NCBI GenBank assembly: GCA_028870665.1 | Contig: JAGWPB010000028.1 | Location: forward strand, 1-35,695 | Direction of reading: 5' to 3' | DNA: 35,695 nucleotides | Source of the DNA: Lysobacteraceae bacterium | GTDB lineage: Bacteria; Pseudomonadota; Gammaproteobacteria; Xanthomonadales; Rhodanobacteraceae | In this document: positions 12,338 through 32,873 of the stretch, one piece after another | How positions within the stretch are numbered: the first letter of the stretch is position 1 | How the letters are laid out: every line of letters starts with the position of its first letter | Notes under the pieces: model-generated | What the model was told of the DNA's origin: nothing | What the model saw: the letters and a program-made list of their open reading frames with translations, nothing else | Databases searched by the model: none | Program-made: the position numbers and the translations under genes

Positions 12338-12356
12338 GGCGGGATGGCCTGCGATG

Positions 12357-13004
12357 TCAGGGGCGGGCGGTGATCAGGAACACCGGGTAGCGGCGCTCGC
12401 GGCCGTCGGCGGCGGTCTTGCTCACGGTATGCGCCGTGCGCGCGCGGACATCGGTGTAGCCGGCGTTGCGCAGATCAGCCTGCAGTGCGGCGCGATCGAA
12501 GCCGTGGTGCATCACGCCGGGCACGTCGGGGCGATGGAAGCTGCCGTCCTCGGCGTCGAGATCGGCCAGCGCCAGCCAGCCGTCCGGCTTGAGCAGGCCG
12601 TGCAGGACGCGCAGCAGCGCCGCGACGTCGGGAATGTGATGCAAGGTCATGCTGCTGAAGACCAGGTCGAAGCGCTCCGCCGGCGCCGGTTCGCGGGTCA
12701 GGTCGAGGACGCGCGTCTGCAGGTGATCGAGGCCGGCCGCGCGGGCCTTCGCCGCCAGCACCGCCAGCATCCCCGGCGAGACGTCGCAGGCCAGCAGCCG
12801 CGCCACGCGCGGCGCCAGCGCGGCGCCGACCAGGCCGGTACCGCAGCCGTACTCGAGCGCGTGCCAGTGCGCCTGCAGCGGCACGGCGGCAGTGATCGCC
12901 GCCGCGACGCCGGCCGCCAGCGCGCGGCGAGTGGGGCTGTCATCCCAGTCGGCGGCGATGGCATCGAAACGCTGGCGGTTCTGATCCTGCACCGGCGCGG
13001 ACAT
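12357..13004 (-). CDS. Class I SAM-dependent methyltransferase
   Basis: A protein of 215 residues. Motif I is LEYGCGTGLVGAAL, the acidic residue after strand 2 is in LACDVSPGML, and FDLVFSSMTLHHIPD and LKPDGWLALADLD give motifs post-I to III. This is the Methyltransf_11/25 type fold. The N-terminus (NRQRFDAIAADWDDSPTR) resembles small-molecule or quinone-type methyltransferases. The ATG at 13004 has GGAAT upstream; a start at 13037 would add eleven residues. It is the first gene of a minus-strand run with the SDR and flavin oxidoreductase. The substrate is unknown. A link to the pigment locus is not supported, as unrelated genes intervene over about 9 kb. Confidence 0.88.
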   Translation of the reverse strand: MSAPVQDQNRQRFDAIAADWDDSPTRRALAAGVAAAITAAVPLQAHWHALEYGCGTGLVGAALAPRVARLLACDVSPGMLAVLAAKARAAGLDHLQTRVLDLTREPAPAERFDLVFSSMTLHHIPDVAALLRVLHGLLKPDGWLALADLDAEDGSFHRPDVPGVMHHGFDRAALQADLRNAGYTDVRARTAHTVSKTAADGRERRYPVFLITARP

Positions 13005-13032
13005 GGCGGATTCCGACAGGGCGTGAATGCCC

Positions 13033-13060
13033 AGCATAGGCGCCGCCGCCGCGAATTCAA
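13033..13060 (-). promoter_or_regulatory. Candidate sigma-70 promoter of the methyltransferase operon
   Basis: On the minus strand TTGAAT (13060-13055) and TATGCT (13038-13033) are separated by 16 bases, each matching consensus at four positions. The expected start near 13026 leaves a leader of about 22 bases before the ATG at 13004. The rest of the 145-bp divergent region holds a short 6-bp hairpin (13106-13121) and no other clear site. Confidence 0.4.
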
Positions 13061-13149: not shown

Positions 13150-16100
13150 GTGAGCCAGCGCGGTGTCGACGATCCTGCGTCCGGAGCGGCGTCCGGCGGC
13201 GCATTGCGTGAACGCTTTTACCGCAGTGTCGCCGAGACGCTGACCCTGCTGCACGTGGCCCCCGGGCGCGATCGACGCACCGCACTGCGCGAGGTGGCGC
13301 AGCGGCTGGCCGACGTGATGGCGCTGCCGCTGGTCTGGATCGGTCGCCTGGAGCCGGGCGTCAGCGCAGTGTGCGTGGTCGGCGTCGCCGGTCCGGCGCA
13401 GGCTTACGGCGAAACCCTCCAGCTCGACATCGCCAGCGACCTTCCCGGGGGTCGCGGACCGCTGGCGCTGGCCTTGCGCGAAGGTCGCCCGCGGCTGACG
13501 CCGTGCGAGGCGGCGGAATTCGCGCCCTGGCGCAGCATCGCGGCCGCGCACGGGCTCAGCGACAGCCTGATCGCCGCGGCCACCACCGCCGATGGCGGCC
13601 ACCTCACGCTGTCGGTCTACGGCGATCGCGAGCGCGCCGTGCTCACGGCCGATCTGCTCGACTGGGCGCAGCGGCTGGCGGCGGAGCTCGCCCGCTTCTG
13701 GGATGCCCAGGGCCTGTTCGAGCGCGAGCAGCGGCTGCGCCGTTATCGCGATGCGCAGCGCGCGATCCAGCATGCGCTGCTGCGGCAGCCCGACCCGCCG
13801 GCCATCTATCGCAGTCTGGCCGAGGCGCTGGTCGAGGTCGCCGGCGCCGCGGCCGTGGATGTCCTCGTCGCCGATGCCGCGGGTCCGCTGCTGCGCCGGG
13901 TGGCCCTGGCCGGACCGCTGGCGGCGGCGATCCGCGACCTGCCGCGCCCGCCGCGCGCGCCGGACGGGCCGATGGTGCCGACCCCGACGCTGGCCTTCAG
14001 CCGCGGTCTGCCGGTGATCCGCGTGCAGCCCGGCGCCGACCCGACGATGCCGGAGGGCTGGCGGCAGGCACCGCTGGCCGCGATGGGCGCGGTGGCCTGC
14101 TGGCCGATCTTCGGCGCCGGTGACGAACCGCCGCCGGCGGCCGCCGGCGCCAGCGGCGTGTTCGCGGTGGTGACGCGCGAGTCCGATGCGTTCACCGCCG
14201 AGATGCGCGCGTTGCTGGACGAGATCGCCGAAGCGGCCGGCCTGGCGCTGCAGCAGCATGCGCAGCGCCAGGCGCTGGCCTACGAGCGCGAGCGCCAGGC
14301 GCATCTGGCCCTGCACGATGCGCTGACCGGCTTGCCCAACCGGCGCGCGCTGGAGCACCAGCTCGAGGGCGCGCTGGCGCGATCGCGACGGCATCGGCTG
14401 CTGGTGGCCGTCGGCCTGCTCGATCTCGACGACTTCAAGCCGGTCAATGACCGTCATGGCCATGCCGGCGGCGACCAGCTGCTGAAGGAGGTGGCGCAGC
14501 GCCTGCGCCACGGCGTGCGCGCCGACGATTACGTGGCGCGTCTGGGCGGCGACGAGTTCGTGCTGGTGTTCGAGGACATCGAGCGCAGCGAGGACCTCGG
14601 GCTGCTGCTCGATCGCGTGCAGACGGTGCTCGCGCAGCCATTCGCGATCGATGGCGAAGCGCTGCCGCTGCGCGTCAGCCTGGGCGTGGCGCTGTTTCCG
14701 TTGCACGCGCAGGCCAGCGGCGAGCAGTTGCTGCGGCGTGCCGATCAGGCGATGTACCAGGTCAAGCTGCACAAGCACGAGCCCCATGCCTGGTGGAGCC
14801 TGCCGCCGGACGGCGAGACGCCGGTCACGACGCCCAGCGAGCGCGCGATCGGCGAGCTGCAACCCTATGGCGCGCTGGCTGCCGAACTGCTGTCCGCGGG
14901 GGTCACCCTCAGTGCCGCGCAGCGCGAGAAGCTGGTCGAGGATTTCTATGCCGAACTGGCCGGCAAGGCGGAGCCGGCGCGGCTGCTGGCGGCGCTGCCG
15001 CCGGAGGACTGGTCCGCGCTCAAGCGCAAGCAGCTCGAGCATGTCGGCCTGCTGCTGCAGCCGCGGCTCGATGCCGGCACGCACAGCGCGCTGGCGCGGC
15101 GCGCCGGCCGCAGTCATGCCGCCTGCGGCATCGAGAGCGTATGGGTCTCCGACAGCGCCGAGCATCTGCGCGAGATGCTCGATACCCTGCTGGCGCGGCA
15201 GCTGCGCCGCGATCGCCGCGCCCTGCTGGTCATGCACCGCCGGCTCGGTCTCGATCGCCAGTGGCAGCTGGAGGGCATGCGCGCGCTGCAGCAGGAGCGC
15301 GATCAGCTGCTCGGCCGCATCAGCGCCGTCGCCTGGGCGGCGACCGGCTACCTCGACCTGATCCAGAGCGTGGTCGACGCGCTGGGGACCCATGAGGAAA
15401 TCACCGCCTGCGCGATCGGCCGTCCCGACGCCGGCGGCCGCTTCATCTTCGAGGCGGTCGCCGGCGCCTCGTTCGCCGACTTCCTGCGCGCGGTCGAACG
15501 CGACGAGGTGCCGCCGATCCGCGCCGAGGCCGATCGTCGCGAAGGCGGCGGGCCGAGCGGGCGCGCCTGGCGCAGCGGCAGCATCGAGCGCTGCTCCCAT
15601 TACGCGACCGACCCGGCGATGCTGACGTGGCGGGCCGTCGCCCTGCGTCTGGGCATCCGTTCCAGCGTGACGATCCCGCTGACGCCGACGCCGCAGGTGC
15701 CGGTCGCGGTGCTGTCGATCTACAGCCGTTATCCCGGCGGTTTCGTCAGCGACAGCCAGCAGGCTTTCGCGGCCCAGCTCAAGACCCTGCTCGATCTGGC
15801 ACTGGCGCGACTGGCGCCCGCGGGCCGCGGTGGCGCGGTGCTGCCGTTCACCGTGCGCGAGCGCTGGCGCGGACTGATCGGCACCGCGGCGCTGGAGATG
15901 CATTACCAGCCGGTGGTCGACCTGGCGCGTGGCCGGCTGGTCGAACTGGAGGCGCTGGCGCGGTTGCGCGACGAGGGCGAGCTGCTGCTGCCGGGGCGGT
16001 TCCTGCCGGCACTGCGCGAGGACGACCTGCTGCTGCTGTTCCGCGGCGGCCTGGGCCAGGCGCTGCGTGCGCGCCGGACGCTGGCCGCGGGCGGCCTGGC

Positions 16101-16923
16101 GCTGGGCATCGCGATCAACCTGCCGGCCACGGCCTTGCATGACGCGCGCTACCTCGAGACGGCCGGCGCCGAACTGGCCGCGATCGACGTGCCGCCGTCC
16201 GCCGTGTGCTTCGAGCTGCTGGAATCGGCCGCCGGCAGCGACAGCGAACCCGATGCGATGCTCGGGGTCGCCGGCGTGCTGGCGTTCAAGGCCCTCGGTG
16301 TGCGCGTGGTCGAGGACGACCTCGGCGCCGGCTACAGCTCGCTGAGCCGGCTGCGGCAATGGCCGTTCGATCGCGTCAAGATCGACCAGACCCTGGTGCG
16401 CGAGGTCGGCGACGATCCCTTGCGGACCCTGCGCTTCATGCGCCAGCTGACCCGGCTCGGTCACGACCTCGATCTCGAGGTCGTGATCGAGGGCCTGGAG
16501 ACGCCGGGACTGGTCGAGGCGGCGCTGGTGCTGGGGGCCGATTTCGGCCAGGGCTATGCGCTGGCGCGACCGATGCCGCTGGCCGCGGTCGCGGCCTGGC
16601 AGGCGACGTTCCGCTGCGATTGCGCGCCCGAACGCCCGCGCACCGCGCTCGGCGCGCTGGCCGGTTTCATCCTCTGGGAAGAGCAGCTCGGCGGATTCCA
16701 CGGCGATGCGGCCCTGCAGGCGAAGGCGGCCGCGCAGTCGTGCCGGGTCCAGGCCTATCTCGACCAGCTCGCGACGCTGCCGGACGCGCTCGACCGGGCC
16801 CATCGCGCGATGCACGCGGCGGCCCGTCGCGGTGTCCATGACGCCGGCTACCGCGCGGCGCGCGACGGCTTTGTCGATCTGCTGACGCGCCACGTGCAGG
16901 CCGAGGAGCGCGCCGCGAGCTGA
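13150..16923 (+). CDS. Multi-sensor c-di-GMP protein: GAF-GAF-GGDEF-globin-like-GAF-EAL-CZB-like
   Basis: A protein of 1257 residues with no membrane segment. Approximate order: GAF (25-195), GAF (220-385), GGDEF (400-550), globin-like sensor (570-720), GAF (735-885), EAL (900-1145), C-terminal helical domain (1160-1250). GGDEF is intact at 466-470 with an RxxD site (R457-D460). The EAL domain has EAL at 934-936, an Asn in AINLP, VEDDLGAG, VKIDQ and EGLET, so phosphodiesterase residues are kept. The middle part has VEDFYAEL (Tyr600, candidate distal Tyr) and GRSHAACGIESVWV (His656, candidate proximal haem ligand), the pattern of globin-coupled sensors. The tail has W1176, C1198 and H1218-x3-H1222, as in CZB zinc domains, but Phe1173 sits where I expect the first His. 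The GTG at 13150 has a strong GGGAGG eight bases upstream. A flavoprotein gene follows after 66 bases. Confidence 0.9.
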   Translation: MSQRGVDDPASGAASGGALRERFYRSVAETLTLLHVAPGRDRRTALREVAQRLADVMALPLVWIGRLEPGVSAVCVVGVAGPAQAYGETLQLDIASDLPGGRGPLALALREGRPRLTPCEAAEFAPWRSIAAAHGLSDSLIAAATTADGGHLTLSVYGDRERAVLTADLLDWAQRLAAELARFWDAQGLFEREQRLRRYRDAQRAIQHALLRQPDPPAIYRSLAEALVEVAGAAAVDVLVADAAGPLLRRVALAGPLAAAIRDLPRPPRAPDGPMVPTPTLAFSRGLPVIRVQPGADPTMPEGWRQAPLAAMGAVACWPIFGAGDEPPPAAAGASGVFAVVTRESDAFTAEMRALLDEIAEAAGLALQQHAQRQALAYERERQAHLALHDALTGLPNRRALEHQLEGALARSRRHRLLVAVGLLDLDDFKPVNDRHGHAGGDQLLKEVAQRLRHGVRADDYVARLGGDEFVLVFEDIERSEDLGLLLDRVQTVLAQPFAIDGEALPLRVSLGVALFPLHAQASGEQLLRRADQAMYQVKLHKHEPHAWWSLPPDGETPVTTPSERAIGELQPYGALAAELLSAGVTLSAAQREKLVEDFYAELAGKAEPARLLAALPPEDWSALKRKQLEHVGLLLQPRLDAGTHSALARRAGRSHAACGIESVWVSDSAEHLREMLDTLLARQLRRDRRALLVMHRRLGLDRQWQLEGMRALQQERDQLLGRISAVAWAATGYLDLIQSVVDALGTHEEITACAIGRPDAGGRFIFEAVAGASFADFLRAVERDEVPPIRAEADRREGGGPSGRAWRSGSIERCSHYATDPAMLTWRAVALRLGIRSSVTIPLTPTPQVPVAVLSIYSRYPGGFVSDSQQAFAAQLKTLLDLALARLAPAGRGGAVLPFTVRERWRGLIGTAALEMHYQPVVDLARGRLVELEALARLRDEGELLLPGRFLPALREDDLLLLFRGGLGQALRARRTLAAGGLALGIAINLPATALHDARYLETAGAELAAIDVPPSAVCFELLESAAGSDSEPDAMLGVAGVLAFKALGVRVVEDDLGAGYSSLSRLRQWPFDRVKIDQTLVREVGDDPLRTLRFMRQLTRLGHDLDLEVVIEGLETPGLVEAALVLGADFGQGYALARPMPLAAVAAWQATFRCDCAPERPRTALGALAGFILWEEQLGGFHGDAALQAKAAAQSCRVQAYLDQLATLPDALDRAHRAMHAAARRGVHDAGYRAARDGFVDLLTRHVQAEERAAS

Positions 16924-22644: not shown

Positions 22645-23844
22645 ATGCCGCGCGCCGATCACGCCCCCGCCATCACGGCTTGTACCGTCACCTCCGCGCT
22701 GGGCGTCGGGTGCGCGGCGCATCGCGAGGCACTGGCCGCGGGCCGCGGCGGCCTGCGACCCAACGACTTCACCCGCACCCCGTTGGCGTGCTGGATCGGA
22801 CGCGTGGCGGGCCTCGAGGACGTATCGCTGCCGCCGCCGCTGGCGCGTTTCGACAGCCGCACCCACCGGCTCGCCTGGCGCGCCCTGCACGCGGACGGTT
22901 TCGATGCGGCGGTCGCCGCCGCGCGCGCGCGCCACGGCCCGGCGCGGATCGCCTGCGTGCTGGGCACCTCGACCTCCAGCATCGGCGCCACCGAGGAAGC
23001 CTACACGCGCCTGCGGCAGGGGCGCATGCCCGACGACCTGCGTCGCCGCGAGATCCATCATCCGCATGCGCTGGCCGCGTTCGTCAGCGCCGCGCTGCAG
23101 CTGGACGGCCCGGCGCTGACGGTCTCGACCGCCTGCTCGTCGAGCGCCAAGGTGTTCGCGGCCGGCGCGCGGCTGCTGCGCCACGGTCTGGCCGACGCGG
23201 TGCTGGTCGGCGGCGCGGATTCGCTTTGCGGCAGCACGCTGTTCGGGTTCAACGCGCTCGAACTGATCGCGCCGGAACCCTGCCGGCCGTTCGATCGCGC
23301 ACGTCGCGGCCTGTCGATCGGCGAGGGCGCCGGCTTCGCGCTGCTGGAGCGTGCCGCGGCGGCATCGCACGCGCCGCGCCTGCTCGGCTGCGGCGAGTCG
23401 TCCGATGCCCATCACCTGTCGGCGCCGCATCCGCAAGGGCTCGGCGCGCGCCTGGCGATCACGGCGGCATTGACGGCCGCGGGCCTGACCCCGCGCGACG
23501 TGGATTACCTCAACCTGCACGGCACCGCCAGCCCGCAGAACGACGCCGTCGAGGCCACGCTGGTCGGCGCACTGTTTCCGCGCGCGCTGCGCGCCAGTTC
23601 CAGCAAGGGCGCCACCGGACACACCCTCGGCGCGGCGGGCATCATCGAGGCGGTGATCACCCTGCTGGCGCTGGAACACGGCCTGGTGCCGGGCACGCAT
23701 GGTTGCCGCGATCCGGAGCCGGCGATCGCCGCGCAACTGGCGCTGGCGCCCGAATCGCGTCCGCTGCGCGTCGCGCTCAGTGCCTCGTTCGGCTTCGGCG
23801 GCAGCAATGCCTGCCTTGCCTTTGCCCGCGCGGAGGCGGCGTGA
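22645..23844 (+). CDS. Beta-ketoacyl-ACP synthase of the aryl-polyene/xanthomonadin locus (ApeO/FabF-like)
   Basis: A ketosynthase of 399 residues with the thiolase fold. The catalytic Cys164 is in STACSSSAK, the first His292 in LHGTASPQND, Lys321 in KGATGHT and the second His326 in GHTLGAAG, so the C-H-H set is complete. It should carry out decarboxylative condensation of malonyl-ACP with the growing aryl-primed chain. The ATG at 22645 was chosen because the fold begins directly after it (ITACTVTSALG); the upstream frame is not coding-like. Its stop overlaps the GTG of the chain-length-factor gene by four bases, as is usual for KS/partner pairs. In characterised aryl polyene systems an active KS pairs with a KS-like partner (ApeO-ApeC), which fits this arrangement. 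Confidence 0.93.
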   Translation: MPRADHAPAITACTVTSALGVGCAAHREALAAGRGGLRPNDFTRTPLACWIGRVAGLEDVSLPPPLARFDSRTHRLAWRALHADGFDAAVAAARARHGPARIACVLGTSTSSIGATEEAYTRLRQGRMPDDLRRREIHHPHALAAFVSAALQLDGPALTVSTACSSSAKVFAAGARLLRHGLADAVLVGGADSLCGSTLFGFNALELIAPEPCRPFDRARRGLSIGEGAGFALLERAAAASHAPRLLGCGESSDAHHLSAPHPQGLGARLAITAALTAAGLTPRDVDYLNLHGTASPQNDAVEATLVGALFPRALRASSSKGATGHTLGAAGIIEAVITLLALEHGLVPGTHGCRDPEPAIAAQLALAPESRPLRVALSASFGFGGSNACLAFARAEAA

Positions 23845-24629
23845 GCGCGGTGCCCGCGGTCGGCGTCCGTGGCATCGGCGTGTGGACGCCCGCGGCGCCG
23901 TCGTGGCCGGCCCTGCAGGCGCTGCTGGCGGGGATCGCGCCGGAGCCGGAAATGGCGCCGTCCGCGCGCATCCTCGCGGCCGGCGAGCGCCGCCGCGCGC
24001 CCTTGTCGGTCCGCCTGGCGGTCGAGGTGGCGGCGCAGGCGGTCCAGGCCAGCGGGCTGGCTGCGGCGACCCTGCCGACGGTCTTCGCCAGCGCCTACGG
24101 CGACAGCACGATCACCGACGAGCTGGCGCGCACGCTGGCCAGCGCGCCGACGCAGGTGTCGCCGACGCGCTTCACCCACTCGGTGCTCAACGCCGCCGCC
24201 GGTCACTGGAGCATGGCCGTCGGCTGCCATGCCGCCAGCAGCGCCGTTTGCGCCGGCGAATCCACCTTTGCGGCCGGGCTGCTGGAGGCCACGCTGCAGG
24301 TGGTCGACAGCGGCCATCCGCTGCTGTTCGTCGCCAGCGACATCGCCACGATCGGAGCGCTGGTCGACGTCGCCCCGGCGGCCCTGAGTTTCGCCTGCGC
24401 GCTGGTGCTGGCACCGGCATCGGACCCGGCGCCCCGGTTGCGGCTGCGCACGCGTTCGGCCATCGCCCGCGAGAGCCTGCCGCGGCAGCTGCAGGCGGCG
24501 GCGTGGTACAAGCAAAATCCCTGTGCCCGCAGCCTGACGCTGCTGGAAGCGCTGGCGCGCGGCACGCCTTCGCGCCTGCGACTGGCGCTGGCGCCGGCAC
24601 TGACCCTGGACATCGAGATCGAGGCATGA
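23841..24629 (+). CDS. KS-like chain-length factor (ApeC-type, PF13723-like)
   Basis: A protein of 262 residues resembling the N-terminal half of a ketosynthase, matching the 'beta-ketoacyl synthase chain length factor' family. In the segment where a KS has TACSS it reads GCHAASSAVC (residues 128-137), so the nucleophilic Cys is displaced or absent, and there is no HGT or GHT motif. It is therefore expected to be non-condensing and to act as heterodimer partner of the upstream KS, shaping the chain length. The start is GTG at 23841, overlapping the KS stop (GTGA), and its stop overlaps the glycosyltransferase start (ATGA at 24626). Tight coupling on both sides supports stoichiometric expression. 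Confidence 0.85.
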   Translation: MSAVPAVGVRGIGVWTPAAPSWPALQALLAGIAPEPEMAPSARILAAGERRRAPLSVRLAVEVAAQAVQASGLAAATLPTVFASAYGDSTITDELARTLASAPTQVSPTRFTHSVLNAAAGHWSMAVGCHAASSAVCAGESTFAAGLLEATLQVVDSGHPLLFVASDIATIGALVDVAPAALSFACALVLAPASDPAPRLRLRTRSAIARESLPRQLQAAAWYKQNPCARSLTLLEALARGTPSRLRLALAPALTLDIEIEA

Positions 24630-25420
24630 GCGACCGCACGCCCCCGCGCTGCTGCATCCTGATTCCCGCGCTCAACGAGGAACGCGCCATCCGCGGCGTG
24701 ATCGAGTCCGCGCTGGCGGTCTGCGCCGACGTGATCGTGGTCGACGACGGCTCCGATGACGCCACGCCCGCGATCGTCGGCACGTTGCCGGTGACGTTGA
24801 TCCGCCACGCGCAGCGCATGGGCAAGGGCGAGGCCCTGCGCGACGGCTTTCGCGCCGCGCTGCGGCTGGGTTTCGACGCGGTGGTGACGATGGATGGCGA
24901 CGGCCAGCACCTGGCCAGCGACGTGCCGCGCCTGCTGGCGGCGGCGCGCGCCTTCCCCGACCACATCGTGATCGGCGCGCGCCTGCGCGAGCGCGAGCAC
25001 CAGCCGAAGGCGCGCCAGCGCGCCAATGCGGTCGCCGACTGGGGCATTTCAGTGGCCTGCGCGCAGCCGATCGCCGACACCCAGAGCGGCCAGCGCTACT
25101 ACCCGCGCGCGGCGCTGGAACTGGTCGACCTGCCGGCCGAGAACTTCGTGTTCGAGGCGGCGATCCTGATCGCGGCCTCGCGCGAGCGCGGTCTCGGCGT
25201 GGTCTCGGTGCCGATCGCCTCGCGCTACCAGGGCGAGTTCCGGCTCAGCCATTTCCGTCCGGTCCGGGACGTCACCCGCATCACCGTCTACACCGTCGGC
25301 CGCGCCCTGCATTACGGCCATCTGTGGCGCAGCATCCGCCGCGCGCGGGCGACGCCGCCCAAGGTGATCGATCCGCCGCAGGAGTCCGCGGGTCCCGCCG
25401 GCGCACCGCGATTGGCCTGA
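24626..25420 (+). CDS. Family 2 glycosyltransferase of the pigment locus
   Basis: A protein of 264 residues with the GT-A fold: CCILIPALNEERAIRG at the start, DDGSDD at 40-45, the metal-binding TMDGDGQH (D-x-D type) at 89-95, and a later DTQSGQRYY with FVFEAAILI as in dolichol-phosphate-mannose-synthase-like enzymes. No transmembrane helix is obvious, so it is likely a cytoplasmic or membrane-associated enzyme that adds a sugar to a lipid or to the polyene head. In enterobacterial aryl polyene clusters glycosyl and acyl transfer are, as I recall, fused in one protein (ApeJ); here they are separate genes. Its start overlaps the chain-length-factor stop. It converges on the FabG-like gene with 3 bases between stops. 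Confidence 0.9.
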   Translation: MSDRTPPRCCILIPALNEERAIRGVIESALAVCADVIVVDDGSDDATPAIVGTLPVTLIRHAQRMGKGEALRDGFRAALRLGFDAVVTMDGDGQHLASDVPRLLAAARAFPDHIVIGARLREREHQPKARQRANAVADWGISVACAQPIADTQSGQRYYPRAALELVDLPAENFVFEAAILIAASRERGLGVVSVPIASRYQGEFRLSHFRPVRDVTRITVYTVGRALHYGHLWRSIRRARATPPKVIDPPQESAGPAGAPRLA

Positions 25421-25423
25421 GGC

Positions 25424-26155
25424 CTAGGCCATGCCGCCATTGACGCCGATCACCTGGCCGTTGATGTAGCCGGCGGCGTCCGAGCACAGAAAGCCGACCA
25501 GCGCCGCGACCTCGTCCGCGCGGCCGGCGCGACCCGCCGGCACCAGCGCGCGCAGCTGTTCGTCGTCGAAGTGGCCGTCGCTCATGCGCCCGGCGATCAC
25601 GCCCGGCGCGACCACGTTGACGGTCACGCCGCGGCTGGCCATCTCGCGCGCCAGCGAGCGCGCCGCGCCGTGCAGCGCGGACTTCGCGGCCGCGTAGTTG
25701 ACCTGGCCGCGGTTGCCGAGCTGCGCGGCAACCGACGAGATCGCCACGATGCGACCGAAGCGCGCGCGGCCCATCGGCAGCAGCAGCGGCTGCACGACGT
25801 GGAAGAAGCCGTGCAGGGAGACATCGATCACGCGATGCCACTGCTCCTCGCGCATGCCGGCCAGCGGCGCGTCGTCATGGATGCCCGCCGCATGTACCAG
25901 GGCGTGCAGCGGACCGGCGGCGAGCAGGCGCTCCAGCTCGGCGCGGGTGGCGGCGCCGTCGGTGAGATCGAAATTCACCGCTTCGGCGCCGCCGCCCGCG
26001 GCGCGGATCGCCGCGGCCACGGCCTCGGCGCGCGCGTGTCCGCGCACCGCCTGCACGGCGACGGCGTAGCCTTGCGCGGCGAGCGTGCGGCAGACGGCGC
26101 TGCCGATGTCGCCGCTGCCGCCGGTGACCAGGGCGCGGCGCGGGAATTGCTGCAT
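25424..26155 (-). CDS. 3-ketoacyl-ACP reductase, FabG-like (ApeQ-type)
   Basis: A classical SDR of 243 residues. The cofactor loop TGGSGDIGSAV is at 11-21, and the catalytic residues are Ser141 (AISSVAA), Tyr154 and Lys158 (NYAAAKSAL). HAAG (88-91) takes the place of NNAG. The C-terminus GYINGQVIGVNGGMA is typical of FabG, so NADPH-dependent reduction of the 3-keto group on the ACP-bound polyene intermediate is expected. The ATG at 26155 is the first good start; the frame runs further upstream without coding character. It is the last gene of the minus-strand pigment operon, 44 bases after the ApeP-like dehydratase, the only non-overlapping junction in that operon. Confidence 0.93.
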   Translation of the reverse strand: MQQFPRRALVTGGSGDIGSAVCRTLAAQGYAVAVQAVRGHARAEAVAAAIRAAGGGAEAVNFDLTDGAATRAELERLLAAGPLHALVHAAGIHDDAPLAGMREEQWHRVIDVSLHGFFHVVQPLLLPMGRARFGRIVAISSVAAQLGNRGQVNYAAAKSALHGAARSLAREMASRGVTVNVVAPGVIAGRMSDGHFDDEQLRALVPAGRAGRADEVAALVGFLCSDAAGYINGQVIGVNGGMA

Positions 26156-26199
26156 GTCGACCTCGCATGCGGTGGCGGATGCGGGCGGCCGCGCGCGGC

Positions 26200-26649
26200 T
26201 CAGCAGCTGGCGGCGGCGCCGTAGGCGATGGTCGCACGCCCCGTGGCCTGCAGGCATCCGCCCTGGGTGATGCGGAAGGCGTACTGCGCGCCATGATCGT
26301 CACCGAGCAGGCATTCGGCTTCGATGTCCAGTGCACCGCCGGCCGGATCCACGACGTCGACGTGCAGGCGGACCTCGCGCAGCGCGGCGAGCAGGCCGGC
26401 GCGCGGCGCGCCGCCGGCGGCGCGGGCAGCCAGCGCACCATGCACGGCCGCCGCCTGTGCGCCGTATTCGCACAGATGCACGGCATGCAGCGCGCCGTCG
26501 CGGCGCAGCGGATGATCGACGCGCGTGTGCGACGTGCCGCGCGCGCGGATGCGCGTGGCGTCCCAGTCCAGCACGGCATCCAGCAGGCACATCGCGCCGG
26601 CGTGCGGAATCAGCATCGCGATCGCGGCGTGATCGAGCGCGCGGCTCAC
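26200..26649 (-). CDS. Hotdog-fold 3-hydroxyacyl-ACP dehydratase, ApeP-like
   Basis: A protein of 149 residues. The N-terminus has LIPHAGAMCLLDAVLDWD with candidate catalytic His16, then HPLRRDGALHAVHLCEYGAQAAAVHGAL, the signature layout of ApeP-like hotdog dehydratases, distinct from FabA/FabZ. In aryl polyene synthesis ApeP works alongside the second dehydratase ApeI to introduce trans double bonds. The start is GTG at 26649, which overlaps the MMPL exporter stop by four bases. This protein is easily missed, because a very long shadow frame covers it. Confidence 0.87.
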   Translation of the reverse strand: MSRALDHAAIAMLIPHAGAMCLLDAVLDWDATRIRARGTSHTRVDHPLRRDGALHAVHLCEYGAQAAAVHGALAARAAGGAPRAGLLAALREVRLHVDVVDPAGGALDIEAECLLGDDHGAQYAFRITQGGCLQATGRATIAYGAAASC

Positions 26650-28979
26650 CGGTCCGGCTCCGGCAGGCGACGGTGCGGCGCCATCAGCAGCGACAGCGCG
26701 AAGTGGTAGCCGACGCCCAGCGCCACGGTCAGGCCGATCGCGCGCAGCACCGGGATGCCGGAGACGGCCAGGCTGCCGAACACCAGCAGCGCGGCGGCCA
26801 CGCAGACCAGCGTGGCGTGCAGGGTGCGCCGGCGCTCGGCGCGATCGTCGCTGTCGCGCTCGAAGAACAGCGCGTAATGCAGACCCAGTCCGGCGGCGAG
26901 GATCAGCGCCACCAGATGGAACAGGGTCAGCCCGATGCCGGCCACGCGCAGCGTCGCCAGCGCCAGCAGCGTCGCCAGCGTCATCGGCGCCAGCACGTGC
27001 CAGGCCCGGCGCGGGCCGTGCAGCGCCAGCGTCACCGCCAGCGCCAGCAGCAGCGCGGAGCCCGCCAGCGCCTCGAGGATGCGCGTCCGGTAGGCGGCCA
27101 GCCACTGCTCCGAGGTGGCCTTGAGATCGAGCAGCCGGACACGACCGCCCTGCGCAGCGGCCCAGTGCGCCAGCGCCTGCGGATCGCGCACGTCCACCAG
27201 CGCGCCGAGGCCGTACCACCGGCCGTCCTGGTGAACCAGCATCGACGCCAGCCGCGCGCCCGGCGGCGTGCGTTCGAAGACGGCGGGCGTCAGCGGCGGC
27301 AGCGCGCGCGCGCGTTCGACGTCGCGGATGAAGGGCGCGAACAGCCCGGGCCGGAACGGCAGCCCGTGTTCGGCGACGGCGAGATCCGCCGTCAGCGCGG
27401 CGCGATCGGGCAGCCGCGCCTGGCGCGCGCGCTGCACGCCGCGGCTGGGCAGATAGCGCGAGGGCAGCTCGGCCGCGCCCAGCACGCCGCGCCGTTCGAG
27501 GTCGCGCAGCGCCGGGGTCACCTGCTCGGACAGGGCCAGCACGGCGTCGGCCGTCGGCGCCTGCAGCAGCAGCTGATAGCGCACGTCGGGCGCGCCCAGC
27601 GCCCGGCGCAGCGCGGCATCGCGCGCCAGCAGCGCCGGCGGCACCGGGGTCAGCGCGCCGAGATCGTTCTGCCAGAACGGACCGGGCGCCAGCGCGATCG
27701 CCGTCAGCGCCGCCAGCAGCAGCAGGGCCGGCAGCGCACGCGGGCGCGGCAGGGCGTCGAACCGCGCCGCCAGCCACGCCAGCCCCGGCGTGTCGGCCGC
27801 GTCGCGCACGCGCGCCGGCAGCAGCGGCGGCAGCAGCCAGCGCGTGGCCAGTCCGGCCGCCAGCACGCCGGCGACGGCGAACACGGCCAGCTGCTGCAGG
27901 CCGGGCACCCCGGACGCATAGAACGCGGCGTAGGCGATCGCGGTCGAGGCGATCGCGGTGCGCAGCAGCGGCCACAGTGCACGGACGCTGGCCGTCGCCG
28001 TCTCGGTCGCCGAGCGGTGGCTGAGCACGCGGATCGGATATTCCTGCGCCACGCCGAGCAGGGTGAAGCCGAACGCCAGGGTGATGCCGTGCGCGCCGCC
28101 GTCGATCAGCACCAGCGCGGCCAGTCCGGCCAGTGCCCCGGTGGCGACCGGCAGCGCGCCGAGCAGCAGGCTGGGCACGCTGCGATAGGCGGCCAGCAGC
28201 AGCAGCACGAAGCCCAGCGTGGTCAGTGCGCCGATCCGGTCGGCACTGCGGCGCACGGCACGATCGACGACCACGCTGAAGTAGCCCGGGCCGCTGACTT
28301 CGAGTCGCGCCGCGCCGCGCTGCGGCAGCGCCGCGAAGTGCGCCCGCAGCGCCGCCAGCGCGATGGCCTGGGCGGCGGGATCGAAACCGGGTGCGCGCGT
28401 CTGTGCCACCAGCAGCGCGCCGTGTCGCGGCGAAAGCCATACGCCGTCGTGCAGCGCGGGCGCCCGCGGCGGCGCCCAGCGTCGCGCCAGCGCCAGCGTC
28501 TCCAGGGTGGGGTCGCCGGGCAGCAGCGGCTCCAGCAGCGACGCCGCGGGTGAGCCCAGGTCGGCCAGCCGCTGCTCCAGTGCGGCGCGCAGGGTGATGG
28601 CATCGAGCGGCTGCGTGTCGAAGCCCGGCGTCAGCAGATAGCGGTAGGGCAGCAGGGCCGGATCGAGCGTGGCCAGCGCATTGGCGTCGCCGTCGGCGAC
28701 CAGCACGAAGCGCGGATCGCGCGCCAGCGCCGCGGCCAGGCCGCGGCTGAGGCGCGTCAGATCCGTCGCCGGCGCGCCGCGGATCGCCAGCAGCAGCAGG
28801 CGCGAGCCCGGGCCCTTGCCGATCTGGTCGAGCAGCAGGCGCTGCACCGGCGTGCGCGGCGGCGGCAGGAAGGCGCGCAGGTCGGTTTCGACCCGCAGGC
28901 CGGTGACCACGAACACGCCCAGCGCGGCCAGCGCGGCGAGCCACAGGACCAGCAGCAGGCCGCGCGTGCGCGGCCTCAC
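26646..28979 (-). CDS. MMPL/RND-type inner-membrane exporter of the pigment locus
   Basis: A protein of 777 residues with the MMPL two-fold plan: one N-terminal membrane helix (residues 5-27), a periplasmic domain of about 200 residues, five closely spaced helices (about 230-400), a second periplasmic domain, and a final five-helix bundle ending with FALSLLMAPHRR. Membrane segments include LLLVLWLAALAALGVFVV, GALTTLGFVLLLLAAYRS and ALLLALAVTLALHG. Such proteins flip or extract lipids toward the periplasm; ApeM-type homologues occur in all aryl polyene loci I know of. The start is GTG at 28979, overlapping the LolA-like gene stop (GTGA), which gives the first helix directly; longer upstream starts are not coding-like. 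It is likely to work with the LolA-like carrier encoded just before it. Confidence 0.9.
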   Translation of the reverse strand: MRPRTRGLLLVLWLAALAALGVFVVTGLRVETDLRAFLPPPRTPVQRLLLDQIGKGPGSRLLLLAIRGAPATDLTRLSRGLAAALARDPRFVLVADGDANALATLDPALLPYRYLLTPGFDTQPLDAITLRAALEQRLADLGSPAASLLEPLLPGDPTLETLALARRWAPPRAPALHDGVWLSPRHGALLVAQTRAPGFDPAAQAIALAALRAHFAALPQRGAARLEVSGPGYFSVVVDRAVRRSADRIGALTTLGFVLLLLAAYRSVPSLLLGALPVATGALAGLAALVLIDGGAHGITLAFGFTLLGVAQEYPIRVLSHRSATETATASVRALWPLLRTAIASTAIAYAAFYASGVPGLQQLAVFAVAGVLAAGLATRWLLPPLLPARVRDAADTPGLAWLAARFDALPRPRALPALLLLAALTAIALAPGPFWQNDLGALTPVPPALLARDAALRRALGAPDVRYQLLLQAPTADAVLALSEQVTPALRDLERRGVLGAAELPSRYLPSRGVQRARQARLPDRAALTADLAVAEHGLPFRPGLFAPFIRDVERARALPPLTPAVFERTPPGARLASMLVHQDGRWYGLGALVDVRDPQALAHWAAAQGGRVRLLDLKATSEQWLAAYRTRILEALAGSALLLALAVTLALHGPRRAWHVLAPMTLATLLALATLRVAGIGLTLFHLVALILAAGLGLHYALFFERDSDDRAERRRTLHATLVCVAAALLVFGSLAVSGIPVLRAIGLTVALGVGYHFALSLLMAPHRRLPEPDR

Positions 28980-29641
28980 GGCAGCGGGCCGCCCGCGCAC
29001 AGCGTCGCCAGCGCCGCCGGCGTCGGCGTGGCCGGCAACGCGCTCGTCGCCAGCGCGCCGAGCAGGGTGAAGCTGGTGTCGCCGTTGCCCTGATCCATGC
29101 GCAGGCAGCGCAGGGCATGCCCGCTGCCGTCGACGCTGATGCCGGCCAGCCGCCGCGCCAGCGCGGCATCGCGTGGTGCGAGTTGCAGCGTCCACGCGCG
29201 GACGTCGCCGGAGGCACGGACGGTGAACGTGCCGCGCAGCAGCGCGGCGTCGCCGGACAGCAGCGCGCGAAAGCCGGTCAGCAGGCCCTTGAGCTCCGGC
29301 GCGCGGCCGAGATCGAAGTCCTGCGGCGGCTGTCCCGGACGCACGACCCGTACCCGGTCGCCATCGATGCGGGTGGTCTCGCGGTAGGGCGTGGCGACGT
29401 CGCGCTCGAGTCGCGCGCCCCCCAGCCAGACCAGTTCGCCGCGCAGGATCAGCGGGCGCGTCAGCACGCCGACGTAGCGCACCTCGGTGAACGCGGTGCG
29501 CGCCGGGGCGGGCTGCGCCAGGCCCGCGATCAGCCGCTCAGGAGCCAGCGTGGCCGCGGGGGTCGGCGCCGGCACCAGCGTCGCCAGCAGCAGCGCCGGC
29601 ACCGGTCCCAGTCGCATCCGCAGTCGCTTGCCAGAAGTCAT
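28976..29641 (-). CDS. LolA-like periplasmic lipid/lipoprotein carrier
   Basis: A protein of 221 residues. A Sec signal peptide (KRLRMRLGPVPALLLATLV, cut after PTPA) is followed by a LolA-type beta-barrel pattern: FTEVRYVGVLTRPLILRGEL, RLERDVATPYRETTRIDGD and VVRPGQPPQDFDL. In aryl polyene and other glycolipid loci an outer membrane lipoprotein carrier-like protein accompanies the MMPL exporter and probably moves the pigment lipid across the periplasm. The start at 29641 lies within the acyltransferase gene; an alternative ATG at 29617 would still leave a signal peptide. Neither has a clear ribosome binding site, so translation probably depends on coupling to the upstream gene. Its stop overlaps the exporter GTG. 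Confidence 0.82.
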   Translation of the reverse strand: MTSGKRLRMRLGPVPALLLATLVPAPTPAATLAPERLIAGLAQPAPARTAFTEVRYVGVLTRPLILRGELVWLGGARLERDVATPYRETTRIDGDRVRVVRPGQPPQDFDLGRAPELKGLLTGFRALLSGDAALLRGTFTVRASGDVRAWTLQLAPRDAALARRLAGISVDGSGHALRCLRMDQGNGDTSFTLLGALATSALPATPTPAALATLCAGGPLP

Positions 29642-30518
29642 AGAAGTTGAACCAGTTGCGGGGATAGGTGCGGGCGATCGCTTCGAGGCGCGCGGCAAAC
29701 CGTGTCAACGCCGCATCCAGCGCCGCGGCACGCTGCGCGCGCGGCATCGTGACGCGATCGGCGAAGGGTTCGAACAGCAGCCGGTAGCGGTTGCCGCCAA
29801 GATACAGGCCGAAGCACAGCAGTACCGGCACATCGAGCGCGGCCGCCAGCAGCCACGGCGAGGTCGGCAGCGGCGCCGGCACACCCAGGAACGGCGTCAT
29901 GCGGGTGGCTTCGCCACGGCGCGCACGGTCGGCCAGCAGCGCCACCAGCGCGCCCTCGCGGGTGGCTTCCGCCAGCGCCAGCACGATCGCGGTCGGATCG
30001 CGCGAGGCGTCGATCACGGCGGCGCCGACCTCCGGGGCCAGCGATTCCAGCAGCGCGGTCAATGCCGGCGTCTGGGCCTTGTCCAGCAGCACCCGCAGGC
30101 GGCCCTGCGGGAAGCGGCCGGCCAACGCGCGCAGTGCCTCGAAGCTGCCGACGTGCGCGCCCAGCAGCAGCACGCCGCGGCCTTCGGCGTGCAGCGCCTC
30201 GAGCGTCTCCAGGCCCTCGACTTCGATGGCGAAGCCGTGCGTGCCGCGCGCCAGCAGGAACACGCGATCAAGGGTGGTCGCGGCGTAGCAGTGGAACTGG
30301 CGCATGACCTGCCAGGCGCTGGCCGGGCGGCCCTGCAGGCGCGCGTAGAACTGGCGCGTGGCGCGCCGCTCGGCGCCGCGGCGGAAGAAGAAATACAGCG
30401 TCACCGGATACAGGATCAGCCGTGCCAGCGGCCGTCCGAGGTGCAGGCCGATGCCGCGGATCAGCCACAGCGCGAAGCGTCCGCCCCCCTCGCGACGCCC
30501 CTGCCAATGGGCGTTCAC
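29538..30518 (-). CDS. LpxL/HtrB-like acyltransferase of the pigment locus
   Basis: A protein of 326 residues. It opens with GRFALWLIRGIGLHLGRPLARLIL, a membrane-anchoring region with RFYAR-like segments, and has the HX4E motif AHVGSFEALR (His122, Glu127) typical of Kdo2-lipid A/lysophospholipid acyltransferases. The conserved NWFNFYDFW near the end is usually the family's C-terminus; here about 30 Ala/Gly-rich residues follow, encoded in the overlap with the LolA-like gene. The expected role is acylation of the pigment-lipid. The start is GTG at 30518, overlapping the dehydratase stop (GTGA). Separate acyltransferase and glycosyltransferase genes contrast with the fused enterobacterial form. 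Confidence 0.9.
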   Translation of the reverse strand: MNAHWQGRREGGGRFALWLIRGIGLHLGRPLARLILYPVTLYFFFRRGAERRATRQFYARLQGRPASAWQVMRQFHCYAATTLDRVFLLARGTHGFAIEVEGLETLEALHAEGRGVLLLGAHVGSFEALRALAGRFPQGRLRVLLDKAQTPALTALLESLAPEVGAAVIDASRDPTAIVLALAEATREGALVALLADRARRGEATRMTPFLGVPAPLPTSPWLLAAALDVPVLLCFGLYLGGNRYRLLFEPFADRVTMPRAQRAAALDAALTRFAARLEAIARTYPRNWFNFYDFWQATADATGTGAGAAAGDAGAGADPRGHAGS

Positions 30519-30811
30519 GCGCCCGGATCCAGCAGGCCGCGTGCGATCAGGACGGTGCCCTGGCGGATCGCGAAGCGCACCCGCGCGCCGTCCGCGTGCA
30601 GTTCGATGGTGGCCATCAGTCCGGGCTGCAGCGCTGCCAGGAACTTGGCCTCGATCACGCCGGCCATGGCGACGCCGCGCCACGCGCGCAGCGCCAGGGC
30701 GGCCTGCTCCAGCAGCAGCACGCCCGGTATCCGCGGCTGACCGGGGAAGTGCCCGGGCAGTGCCGGGTGCCCGTGCGGCAGCGAAAAATCCGAGCACCAG
30801 AATTCGCTCAT
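30515..30811 (-). CDS. FabZ/FabA-like 3-hydroxyacyl-ACP dehydratase, ApeI-like
   Basis: A small hotdog protein of 98 residues. GHFPGQPRIPGVLLLEQ (residues 20-36) matches the FabZ signature GHFPxxPxxPGV, with His21 the candidate catalytic residue; AKFLAALQPG and IELHADGARVRFAI follow as the later strands. It lacks the more variable N-terminal part of FabZ (about 140 residues), as expected for the ApeI type. It would dehydrate the 3-hydroxyacyl-ACP in polyene chain growth. The ATG at 30811 overlaps the membrane protein stop (ATGA), and its own stop overlaps the acyltransferase GTG. It is covered by a longer, spurious open frame. Confidence 0.85.
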   Translation of the reverse strand: MSEFWCSDFSLPHGHPALPGHFPGQPRIPGVLLLEQAALALRAWRGVAMAGVIEAKFLAALQPGLMATIELHADGARVRFAIRQGTVLIARGLLDPGA

Positions 30812-31500
30812 GCGCGCTTCTTCAATTCGGGCCAGTGCACGGCCAGCGCACGCGCGAAGGCGACGAAGCCGCCGCGCGGCGCCTGTGGCAACAGCCATCG
30901 GCGCAGGGCGTATTCCAGCACGAAAGCGCTGCCCAGCACGGCGTAGGCGATGACACTGCTCCACAGGCCCCACCAGGCACGCGGCAGCGGCCACGGCGAC
31001 GCCAGACCAGCCATGGCCAGCAGACCGCCCGGCACCGCGAACGCGATCAGCAGCAGCGCGATCAGCGCCATCGCTGCCAGCAGCAGGGTCCAGGCCGCGG
31101 TCACCGCGCGCGTGTAGCGCAGCGTGGCCGCATCGGTCAGCGCGGCGGCGCCTTCGCTGATGCGCACGAAGCGCGTCACCAGCGGTTCGCGGCCACGGCG
31201 CAGGCTGACGCCGAACACCGTGGCGGCGAGTGCCGGCAGCAGCGCCGGCAGCAACGCCATCGGCAGCACTGCCAGATGCAGCGGCAGCAGGGCCAGCAAC
31301 GCCGATGCCAGCACCAGCCACAGCAGCCAGCTGCGCGCGTGACCACGGCACAGTCCCGGCAGCAACAGCAGACTGATCAGCGCCAGCGGCGGCAGCAAGG
31401 CCGGCCGCGGGTCGCTGCTGGCGGCGGCCCAGTGCGTTCCAAGCAGCCAGACCAGGATCAGCACGCCCGCGAGCACGGCACGCGCGCGCGCGGCATTCAC
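30808..31500 (-). CDS. Integral membrane protein, COG4648-like, of the pigment locus
   Basis: A protein of 230 residues with roughly five to six hydrophobic stretches: residues 8-26, 35-50, 58-95, 133-165 and 180-200. Two soluble motifs stand out, VTRFVRISEGAAALTDAATLRYTR and, near the end, WSSVIAYAVLGSAFVLEYALRR. This matches the membrane protein family (COG4648) found in aryl polyene and xanthomonadin loci; it is sometimes annotated as ketosynthase without any KS motif. The function is not known. The start is GTG at 31500, overlapping the ACP stop (GTGA), and its stop overlaps the dehydratase start. Confidence 0.8.
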   Translation of the reverse strand: MNAARARAVLAGVLILVWLLGTHWAAASSDPRPALLPPLALISLLLLPGLCRGHARSWLLWLVLASALLALLPLHLAVLPMALLPALLPALAATVFGVSLRRGREPLVTRFVRISEGAAALTDAATLRYTRAVTAAWTLLLAAMALIALLLIAFAVPGGLLAMAGLASPWPLPRAWWGLWSSVIAYAVLGSAFVLEYALRRWLLPQAPRGGFVAFARALAVHWPELKKRA

Positions 31501-31775
31501 GCCGTGGAGACGCTGCGCTGCTGCTCGATATGCGCTGCCAGCGCGCCCAGGCTGCCGAAGATGCGGCGGTTGTCGGGGTGGTCGGAGCGCAGCTGGAAGC
31601 CGTAACGCCTGGAGACGGCGAGCGCGATCTCGAGCGCGTCGATCGAGTCCAGCCCCAGCGTACCGCCGAACAGGGGGGCGTCGGGCGCGATCGCGGTCGC
31701 GCTGACGCCTTCGAGATTGAGGCTGGTGACGATCAGTTCGGCTAGCTCGCGTTCGGCGGGTGTCTGGGCATTCAT
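31497..31775 (-). CDS. Acyl carrier protein of the pigment locus
   Basis: A protein of 92 residues of the PP-binding family. The phosphopantetheine attachment motif GLDSIDALEIAL has Ser44 at the start of helix 2, and the N-terminal helix ELAELIVTSLNLEG is typical. It should carry the aryl starter and growing polyene as a thioester. It opens the minus-strand operon. The ATG at 31775 has GGAG about ten bases upstream and a TACAAT box 58 bases upstream. Characterised enterobacterial clusters have two ACP genes (ApeE, ApeF); only this one is in the window. Confidence 0.92.
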   Translation of the reverse strand: MNAQTPAERELAELIVTSLNLEGVSATAIAPDAPLFGGTLGLDSIDALEIALAVSRRYGFQLRSDHPDNRRIFGSLGALAAHIEQQRSVSTA

Positions 31776-31832
31776 CGCAGGGCTACTCCATTGGCCTTGC
31801 GGGCCGCCTTGCCGCGGCCTGCATCGTCGACC

Positions 31833-31838
31833 ATTGTA
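31833..31838 (-). promoter_or_regulatory. Candidate -10 element of the minus-strand pigment operon
   Basis: On the minus strand TACAAT (five of six matches) lies in a short AT-richer island of the 114-bp divergent region between the ACP and chorismatase genes. The expected start near 31826 leaves a leader of about 50 bases before the ACP ATG. No good -35 hexamer is found at 16-18 bases. The chorismatase promoter must also lie in this region but I cannot pick it out. Confidence 0.38.
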
Positions 31839-31889
31839 ACATTGTCATTTGCGCGGCCCGTGTCGCCAGTGATCGAAGTCCCCTTTGCC

Positions 31890-32873
31890 ATGCCACTTTC
31901 TGTCGATGCGGCTTGCGTGCCGCTGCGAGTGCATTACGTCGCCGCGGAGCCGGCGAACCTGCTGGCGACGCCCGGCACGCTGGCTGCAATCGGCTTTGGC
32001 GCGGCGGCGGCCCTGACGGATGATCCGCGCTGGTTGCGGCTGCCGTTGCGGCCGCTGGGCGCCGAGGCCATGGTCGAGGTCTGGCGGATCGACGCCACGG
32101 TGGAGCATGGACGGACCGGTGCCGTCCGTTACGCCGCCGGCGGCGGCTGGCTGTTCGGCGCGATCGAGCTCGACGAGGCCGCGCAGGGCGGCCTGGAACA
32201 GGCCGCCGAGGCGGCCTATCGCGCGCTGGCCGCTTTCCAGGTGTCGCGCGCGGAGCAGCACGTGCTGCGCGTCTGGAACTATTTCGGTGCGATCAATCGC
32301 GGCGCCGGCGACGACGAACGCTACAAGCGCTTCTGCGCCGGCCGTGCGCGCGGCATGGGCGCGGGCTTCGCTGGCGGATATCCGGCCGCGACCGCGATCG
32401 GCGTGCAGGACGCGCCGCAGCGGCTGCAGATCTACTGGCTGGCCGCGGCGGCGGCGGGCACGCGGGTGGAGAACCCGCGCCAGACCAGCGCCTGGCGTTA
32501 TCCGCGCCACTATGGCCCGTCGCCGCCCACCTTCGCCCGCGGCATGCGCCTGCCCGGCGGCGCCGGGCTGGCCATCTCGGGCACCGCCGCCATCGTCGGC
32601 CATGCCTCGCAGTCGGCCGGCGATCTCGATGCGCAGCTGGCCGAGACCTTCGCCAATCTCGGCGCCCTGCTGGACGCCGCCGGTGTAGCCGGCGGTTTCG
32701 ACGCACGCTCGCCGCTGAAGGTGTATCTGCGCGATCCGGCGCAAGCCGCGCGCGTCGCGGCCTTTCTCGACGCGCGCCTGCCGGCGGCCGTGCCGCGCCT
32801 GCTGCTCGCGGGCGACGTTTGTCGCGCCGAGCTGGCGGTCGAGATCGACGGCTGGCGGCTGATGTCCGGCTAG
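31890..32873 (+). CDS. xanB2: Chorismatase / hydroxybenzoate synthase, XanB2-like (FkbO/Hyg5 family)
   Basis: A protein of 327 residues. Diagnostic blocks of the chorismatase family are seen in order: VWNYFGAINRGAGDDERYK, FCAGRARGM, a QTSAWRYPRHYGPSPPTFAR stretch, ISGTAAIVGHASQSAGDL and GDVCRAELAVEIDG. In Xanthomonas, XanB2 converts chorismate to 3- and 4-hydroxybenzoate, feeding xanthomonadin and coenzyme Q respectively. Cys311 in GDVCR is a candidate for the cysteine associated with 3-hydroxybenzoate-forming (Hyg5-type) members; this assignment is from memory. The ATG at 31890 gives the family length; the upstream 33 in-frame codons lie in the promoter region. It is divergent from the ACP operon, and its stop overlaps the convergent lipoprotein stop. 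Confidence 0.92.
   Translation: MPLSVDAACVPLRVHYVAAEPANLLATPGTLAAIGFGAAAALTDDPRWLRLPLRPLGAEAMVEVWRIDATVEHGRTGAVRYAAGGGWLFGAIELDEAAQGGLEQAAEAAYRALAAFQVSRAEQHVLRVWNYFGAINRGAGDDERYKRFCAGRARGMGAGFAGGYPAATAIGVQDAPQRLQIYWLAAAAAGTRVENPRQTSAWRYPRHYGPSPPTFARGMRLPGGAGLAISGTAAIVGHASQSAGDLDAQLAETFANLGALLDAAGVAGGFDARSPLKVYLRDPAQAARVAAFLDARLPAAVPRLLLAGDVCRAELAVEIDGWRLMSG

Follow-up and report, generated by a model that had tools for sequence, protein, structure and literature searches.

How the starter unit of an aryl-polyene pigment is activated is not apparent from the gene content of the window analyzed here, the 35,695-base contig JAGWPB010000028.1 (hereafter C16, covered in full) of the Lysobacteraceae bacterium assembly GCA_028870665.1. 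The pigment genes span 22.5–32.9 kb of C16 (Table 1), and the gene set listed in the initial annotation, namely, a XanB2-type chorismatase, ketosynthase (KS), chain-length factor (CLF), ketoreductase (KR), two dehydratases, acyl carrier protein (ACP), acyltransferase, glycosyltransferase (GT), LolA-like and MMPL proteins, was confirmed with Pfam, NCBIfam and tblastn; an ApeG-like membrane protein is an addition to that list. All 12 reading frames of the cluster are free of stops. The chorismatase lies beside type II polyketide synthase genes, the KS is paired with a half-length CLF, and one ApeE-kind ACP, two dehydratases and a KR are encoded. The absences reported from the window also hold: none of the six places in the assembly that match the AMP-binding family PF00501 lies on C16, only one of the three ACP places does, and the ApeK thioesterase has no match anywhere in the assembly. 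The non-pigment flanks had been taken as proof that a ligase is not to be found just beyond the edge; by themselves, they are insufficient, given that the window is an entire contig that ends only 2.8 kb past the chorismatase. We conclude that the locus very probably represents a XanB2-type (xanthomonadin-like) aryl-polyene pathway that is split over two loci, with the starter activated by a ligase encoded on another contig, C17.

A search of the assembly (2.6 Mb in 112 contigs, completeness 91.5%) for an ApeH-like ligase, as proposed in the initial annotation, yielded one such gene, on C17. It is one of the six PF00501 places, encodes a stand-alone AMP-forming ligase and is located within 30 bases of topA. 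Escherichia coli ApeH matches this protein with 29% identity over 420 amino acids (E 1e-29) and does not match the frames of the other five PF00501 places at E<0.01. Scored with the family ligase profile, ApeH reaches 137 bits and the other five places at most 32 bits. The C17 protein retains the YTSGSTG loop, and its C-terminal lysine, K452, is invariant in all 14 sequences aligned. Thus, of the two possibilities raised for this genome, that the ligase is encoded elsewhere is borne out, and nothing was found in support of the ACP being loaded in another way. An aryl-ACP ligase homologue is present on a different contig rather than within 3 kb of XanB2, and linkage of the two does not appear to be defining for the pathway type, the Azoarcus system being split too. 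The AMP-binding fragments on C11 and C21 were rejected as candidates for the pigment ligase; both are contig-end partials, the C11 part is a propionate-CoA ligase, and, as judged from their ends, the two look like halves of one such enzyme. A toxin-antitoxin pair (Xre/MbcA/ParS antitoxin and RES-domain toxin; L011:2705-3843) adjoins the C17 ligase gene, after a Y-family polymerase-like gene.

The separation of the ligase from the chorismatase recurs across the family Rhodanobacteraceae (147 genomes, denoted below by local labels, G000 being the source genome). The ligase was detected in 142 of these genomes, XanB2 in 142 and both in 138, with ligase orthologues accepted at E<1e-50, of which G004, G020, G023, G097 and G099 fall short, and XanB2 counted at E<=0.001, a threshold that admits one contig-end fragment (G043). 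In the 71 genomes where the two genes share a contig, they are at least 13,754 bases apart (median 38 kb, none of the 71 within 5 kb); in the remaining 67, they are on different contigs. These distances are linear coordinate differences between the best matches in each genome, with circular chromosomes not wrapped. In all eight Rhodanobacteraceae regions compared, including that of the source genome, the ligase is adjoined by topA and not by XanB2. A ligase lying just past the contig edge was rejected on the basis of the separation of at least 13,754 bases in 71 of 71 genomes. The initial annotation had named a ligase in a second linked cluster, standard for the clade, as the finding that would undercut its view. 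A standard second place is essentially what these comparisons reveal (topA in 8 of 8, at least 13,754 bases from XanB2 in 71 of 71), although it holds a single gene rather than a second pigment cluster. In G016, which has the closest pair in the family, the eight predicted genes scanned between the ligase and XanB2 encode a protein kinase, UvrD, a RidA-type protein, a short-chain dehydrogenase/reductase (SDR), PolA, a DUF2782 protein and two proteins without a Pfam match; these are not pigment genes, so that the ligase site in that genome is not a second pigment cluster.

Outside the family, the same ligase is mostly found next to the pigment genes. In the search of the order, up to 11 candidates per genome were scored and orthologues were accepted at E<1e-90, with 21 weaker rows (20 outside the family) set aside as general AMP-binding enzymes. 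Thirty genomes of other families contain a clear orthologue, and all 30 also encode XanB2: 21 have the ligase no more than 3 kb from XanB2 (37 to 2,965 bases), three have it farther away on the same contig (15.5, 18.5 and 515 kb) and six on a different contig. The orthologue lies amid the pigment genes, between the ACP and the acyltransferase, in G163 and G156, and beside XanB2 in G265, G233, G200, G195 and G160. In G195, a member of another family, the order is XanB2 - ligase - topA, which would represent the older gene order. In the order search, a single ligase match is listed for each genome at E<=1e-20. In a tree of 19 sequences, relocated and XanB2-linked ligases are intermixed within one group, apart from three other AMP-binding enzymes of the source genome.

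The ligase also co-occurs with the pigment ACP. The ACP was counted at E<=1e-28; G004 and G099 (E 1.3e-19) were scored as lacking it because unlinked second ACPs in other genomes reach about 1e-21 to 1e-23. Among the 147 family genomes, 139 contain both genes, 3 neither, 3 the ligase only and 2 the ACP only (Fisher p 4e-4, uncorrected for relatedness; two of the three double-negative genomes share a genus). In the two ACP-only genomes, the ligase is probably missing through gaps in the assembly: topA is unmatched throughout G020, and in G097 it runs off the contig at the end where the ligase would be expected. G004, G099 and G023, the other three of the five genomes without the ligase, likewise have no pigment ACP at the cut-off applied. 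As for the ligase-only genomes, G043 has a XanB2 match that runs up to a contig edge, and the assemblies of G121 and G132 are in many pieces (about 320 and 420 contigs, respectively). In G023, a single-contig genome, XanB2, ligase, pigment ACP and UbiC are all unmatched at the cut-offs used and topA is present; the pigment pathway seems to have been lost there.

What the sequences show is the gene set, that a ligase orthologue is present and where it lies across the clade; the enzyme activities, the ACP as the ligase substrate and the pigment itself we infer from the precedents of ArcB/ArcT (PMC3949708) and ApeH (PMC8253772). Under this scheme, the XanB2 chorismatase would convert chorismate to 3-hydroxybenzoate (3-HBA) and also 4-hydroxybenzoate (4-HBA). 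The C17 ligase, the family counterpart of Xcc4015, ArcT and ApeH, would then activate 3-HBA with ATP and load it onto the single ApeE-like ACP. The KS-CLF pair, the KR and the two dehydratases would build up the polyene, and the GT, acyltransferase, LolA-like and MMPL proteins would be involved in its attachment and export.

Several observations weigh against this interpretation. The assembly is fragmented and C17 is not joined to C16, such that a binning error is possible in principle; the two agree in composition (72.1% vs 72.9% G+C, tetranucleotide r 0.995), the latter value being weakly discriminating as other genomes reach 0.967 and 0.985. Stronger support for C17 belonging to this genome appears to come from the near relative G139, where a ligase 90–91% identical to that of C17 lies beside a topA that is 95% identical. 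The lysine of the A3 loop is replaced by R in the source genome and by H in G139, and this site is variable in other family members as well; in G028, the ligase match is split over two overlapping frames. The relocated ligases do not form one clade, with G016 grouping with G195 and G160. The deep branches of the tree are long and ApeH is not firmly placed so that, together with this scatter, a single relocation is not established. Three family genomes, G006, G015 and G021, the first and last of which are single-contig genomes, contain the ACP and the ligase and have no match to XanB2 or UbiC. Outside the family, a ligase orthologue at E<1e-90 is missing from 63 of the 93 XanB2-positive genomes, 9 of the 17 genomes of f2 (the family to which G265 belongs) among them. 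In these 63, XanB2 may serve ubiquinone synthesis alone or the ligase may differ; two of the search models were built from the window's own family, and distant orthologues may escape them. None of these points revives a ligase-free pathway in the source genome. A broader scenario, in which the Rhodanobacteraceae ligase left the pigment locus family-wide for its topA context and, having become independent of XanB2, could supply the polyene synthase from scavenged or otherwise made hydroxybenzoate in G006, G015 and G021, we consider unlikely.

Loading of the ACP without a dedicated ligase, either directly or from hydroxybenzoyl-CoA made by a general acyl-CoA ligase, would account for a cluster that itself lacks such a gene in a genome that encodes other AMP-binding enzymes. 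However, the ApeH-like ligase is present in 142 of the 147 family genomes, the five exceptions being the two probable gaps and the three genomes without the pigment ACP, and an ApeH-type ligase loads its ACP without a CoA intermediate (PMC8253772), which leaves this route the least probable of those considered, at the very margin of credibility. The chance that the pathway is dead, with XanB2 kept solely to make 4-HBA for ubiquinone and the remainder being a relic, is scarcely greater. UbiC is unmatched in all 12 genomes searched, so XanB2 may have a housekeeping role, and G004 and G099 do keep XanB2 in the absence of a ligase and of a pigment ACP at the cut-off; nevertheless, the intact frames of the cluster (12 of 12) and the retention of ACP and ligase together in 139 of 147 genomes argue against decay.

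The probability is similarly slight that the C17 enzyme is a general aryl-CoA ligase that functions in another pathway and resembles the pigment ligases incidentally. Its topA neighbor, the presence of uvrD, polA and other non-pigment genes between the ligase and XanB2 in G016, and the retention of the ligase in G006, G015 and G021, which lack XanB2, are all compatible with such a role, but those three genomes retain the pigment ACP, the orthologues in other families are located inside or beside the pigment cluster, and each genome has one listed match.

The thioesterase and the second ACP, which the initial annotation counted among the missing parts, are a different matter, given that their absence is normal for this pathway subtype. 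Among the 32 fetched stretches compared with ApeE, ApeF and ApeK, an ACP was detected in 18, always at a single place, and ApeK in one (G156). Across eight whole genomes, a close ApeK homologue (46–47%) was confined to G045 and G049, where it is far from XanB2, and matches of 23–31% were obtained in four others; the homologue in G049 is near a second ACP, 47% like that of the window, and looks like part of a separate E. coli-type cluster. Like C16, Xanthomonas xanthomonadin clusters contain no second ACP, and partial pigmentation persists when apeK or apeF is deleted in E. coli (PMC8253772); in the Lysobacter enzymogenes cluster, likewise, no thioesterase is recognized (PMC3691225). Because both genes are normally absent from xanthomonadin clusters, neither absence needs an explanation. 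The proposed genome searches for ApeK and ApeF returned no ApeK and, among the proteins compared, no separate ApeF, with ACPs at three places in the assembly. The ACP on C34 was rejected as a second pigment ACP; its partner is a FabF-like KS, and the models nearest to it are those of general ACPs. These two genes (C34:24682-26190, corresponding to L012:8683-10191), which form another small KS-ACP pair, lie by a class-III aminotransferase. In the family members G045 (L153) and G033 (L155), the XanB2-side cluster is smaller, with FabG, MMPL, LolA and ApeG-like genes undetected between the GT and the ACP.

UbiC (PF04345) has no match in any of the 12 genomes searched, the source genome included, and, among 14 controls, E. 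coli alone matched. XanB2 may therefore double as the source of 4-HBA for ubiquinone, a role attributed to it in Xanthomonas (PMC3949708). In G265 and G233, and also in the family member G045, the GT carries a fused halogenase-like domain; it stands alone in the source genome, G097 and G049, and no homologue of this domain was found in G000, G139, G097, G025, G084, G049 or G195. The XanB2-adjacent halogenase of G265 has no counterpart in the C16 cluster, as judged from the fetched regions, where it was looked for. Given that the halogenase domain is missing, a non-halogenated pigment is predicted here. Three PF04820 genes of the source genome were rejected as pigment halogenases, each scoring more than 600 bits (two pieces summed on C108) against only 94 and 51 bits for the pigment-cluster halogenases of G265.

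Apart from one relocated gene, the C16 cluster follows a known pathway and presents an ordinary gene set for a predicted xanthomonadin-type yellow pigment of the membrane. It shares with the Xanthomonas and Lysobacter enzymogenes clusters the XanB2 homologue, ACP, KS with half-length CLF, KR, two dehydratases and acyltransferase (PMC3691225, for Lysobacter). In Xanthomonas, the ligase Xcc4015 is numbered next to XanB2, Xcc4014 (PMC3949708), whereas here it is on another contig. In comparison with the Xanthomonadaceae-type cluster of G265, that of C16 lacks the halogenase and a PlsC-type acyltransferase among the regions compared. A 3-HBA:ACP ligase (XanA2) was reportedly described in Xanthomonas in 2018. 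The closest parallel for the split is the arcuflavin system of Azoarcus sp. BH72 (arcA-L and arcM-X), in which, according to PMC3949708, the XanB2-type ArcB and the ligase ArcT are encoded in two unlinked loci, insertion in either of which abolishes the pigment, and ArcT adenylates 3-HBA in vitro. In Azoarcus, however, an ACP, LolA, an exporter and a dehydratase accompany the ligase, whereas here the ligase alone is apart. With respect to the apeA-R cluster of E. coli CFT073 (names assigned by gene order from a table in PMC8253772), the source genome has matches at E<0.01 to ApeE, G, H (on C17), I, J, L, M, O, P and Q; ApeB, C, D, K and N are unmatched among the proteins compared. It differs from E. 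coli in that the starter would come from a chorismatase rather than UbiC, the ligase is unlinked, and there is no separate ApeF or ApeR.

We found no published description of the relocated Rhodanobacteraceae ligase in titles and the openings of abstracts, with subscription journals outside the scope. What is new is confined to the family-wide displacement of a single gene, an analogous split in Azoarcus being known already, and the accepted view of aryl-polyene synthesis is unchanged. The apparent gap in the pigment pathway is removed. Annotation confined to the cluster would wrongly suggest that starter activation is absent in Rhodanobacteraceae, for which the neighboring topA provides a simple landmark of the ligase.

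Table 1 Pigment genes and right flank on C16, and the starter ligase on C17 (percentages are identities)
Feature	Contig	Position	Strand	Supporting matches
Ketosynthase, ApeO/xanthomonadin-type, PRK09185 family	C16	22540-23844	+	NF006618 482 bits, over cut-off; 45% to E. coli ApeO; 60% to G265 KS
Chain-length factor, N-terminal KS-like, Ketoacyl-synt_2	C16	23835-24629	+	PF13723 8.8e-24 within ORF 22680-24629
Glycosyltransferase family 2	C16	24614-25420	+	PF00535 1.6e-20
3-ketoacyl-ACP reductase (FabG/ApeQ-like)	C16	about 25424-26143	-	NF004200 313 bits; 41% to ApeQ
ApeP-like dehydratase	C16	26224-26646	-	52% to G265 homologue; E. coli ApeP E 4e-4
MMPL/RND-type exporter (ApeM-like)	C16	about 26646-28940	-	52% over 750 aa to G265 protein (PF03176 MMPL); 27% to ApeM, E 2e-39
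LolA-like outer-membrane lipoprotein carrier	C16	about 28976-29602	-	PF19574 LolA_3 2.3e-41
LpxL-type acyltransferase, like acyltransferase half of ApeJ	C16	29538-30518	-	PF03279 8.1e-10; 53% to G265; 30% to ApeJ residues 247-550
Small FabA/ApeI-like dehydratase, about 90 aa	C16	30527-30796	-	41% to G265 FabA-like protein; ApeI E 1.3e-4
ApeG-like membrane protein, 230 aa, several hydrophobic stretches	C16	30808-31500	-	29% over 199 aa to E. coli ApeG, E 4e-12; hydropathy; without Pfam match
Acyl carrier protein (ApeE-like)	C16	31497-31775	-	NF006617 130 bits, over cut-off; PF00550; 46% to ApeE, E 2e-19, vs ApeF E 0.005
XanB2-type chorismatase (FkbO/Hyg5 family; hydroxybenzoate from chorismate)	C16	31791-32873	+	PF21168 3.8e-36; TIGR04444 168 bits, below cut-off 325
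YscW-like lipoprotein, M16 peptidase, then contig end	C16	32870-35686	-	profile matches
Stand-alone AMP-forming ligase	C17	3905-5296	-	464 aa; AMP-binding and AMP-binding_C matches

Some of the gene assignments in Table 1 merit comment. The CLF is recognized by Pfam only, E. coli ApeC giving no match at E<0.01, and in 11 other regions compared a CLF homologue lies next to the KS. Neither C16 dehydratase is matched by Pfam, so that their assignment relies on homology to the G265 proteins and on the weak ApeP and ApeI matches; the ApeP-like homologue in G265 itself matches PF22817 weakly, under the cut-off of that family. The C16 ACP is the expected carrier of the starter unit. Chains of known structure matched by the family profile of the chorismatase are FkbO (4bps) and two entries, 5ag3 and 5a3k, whose deposited name is putative pteridine-dependent dioxygenase. 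Among the best 80 of 143 loci, the relatives of the chorismatase come largely from metagenome-assembled genomes and from Rhodanobacteraceae, the latter including Dyella, Rhodanobacter, Frateuria, Luteibacter, Fulvimonas, Oleiagrimonas and Mizugakiibacter.

Elsewhere on C16, genes for an amine-oxidase-type flavoprotein, an SDR and a methyltransferase lie in a row (10569-13037); O-methyltransfer is a tailoring step for which the pigment cluster has no gene. C16 also encodes two large GAF-GGDEF-EAL proteins (2991-6251 and 13150-16920).

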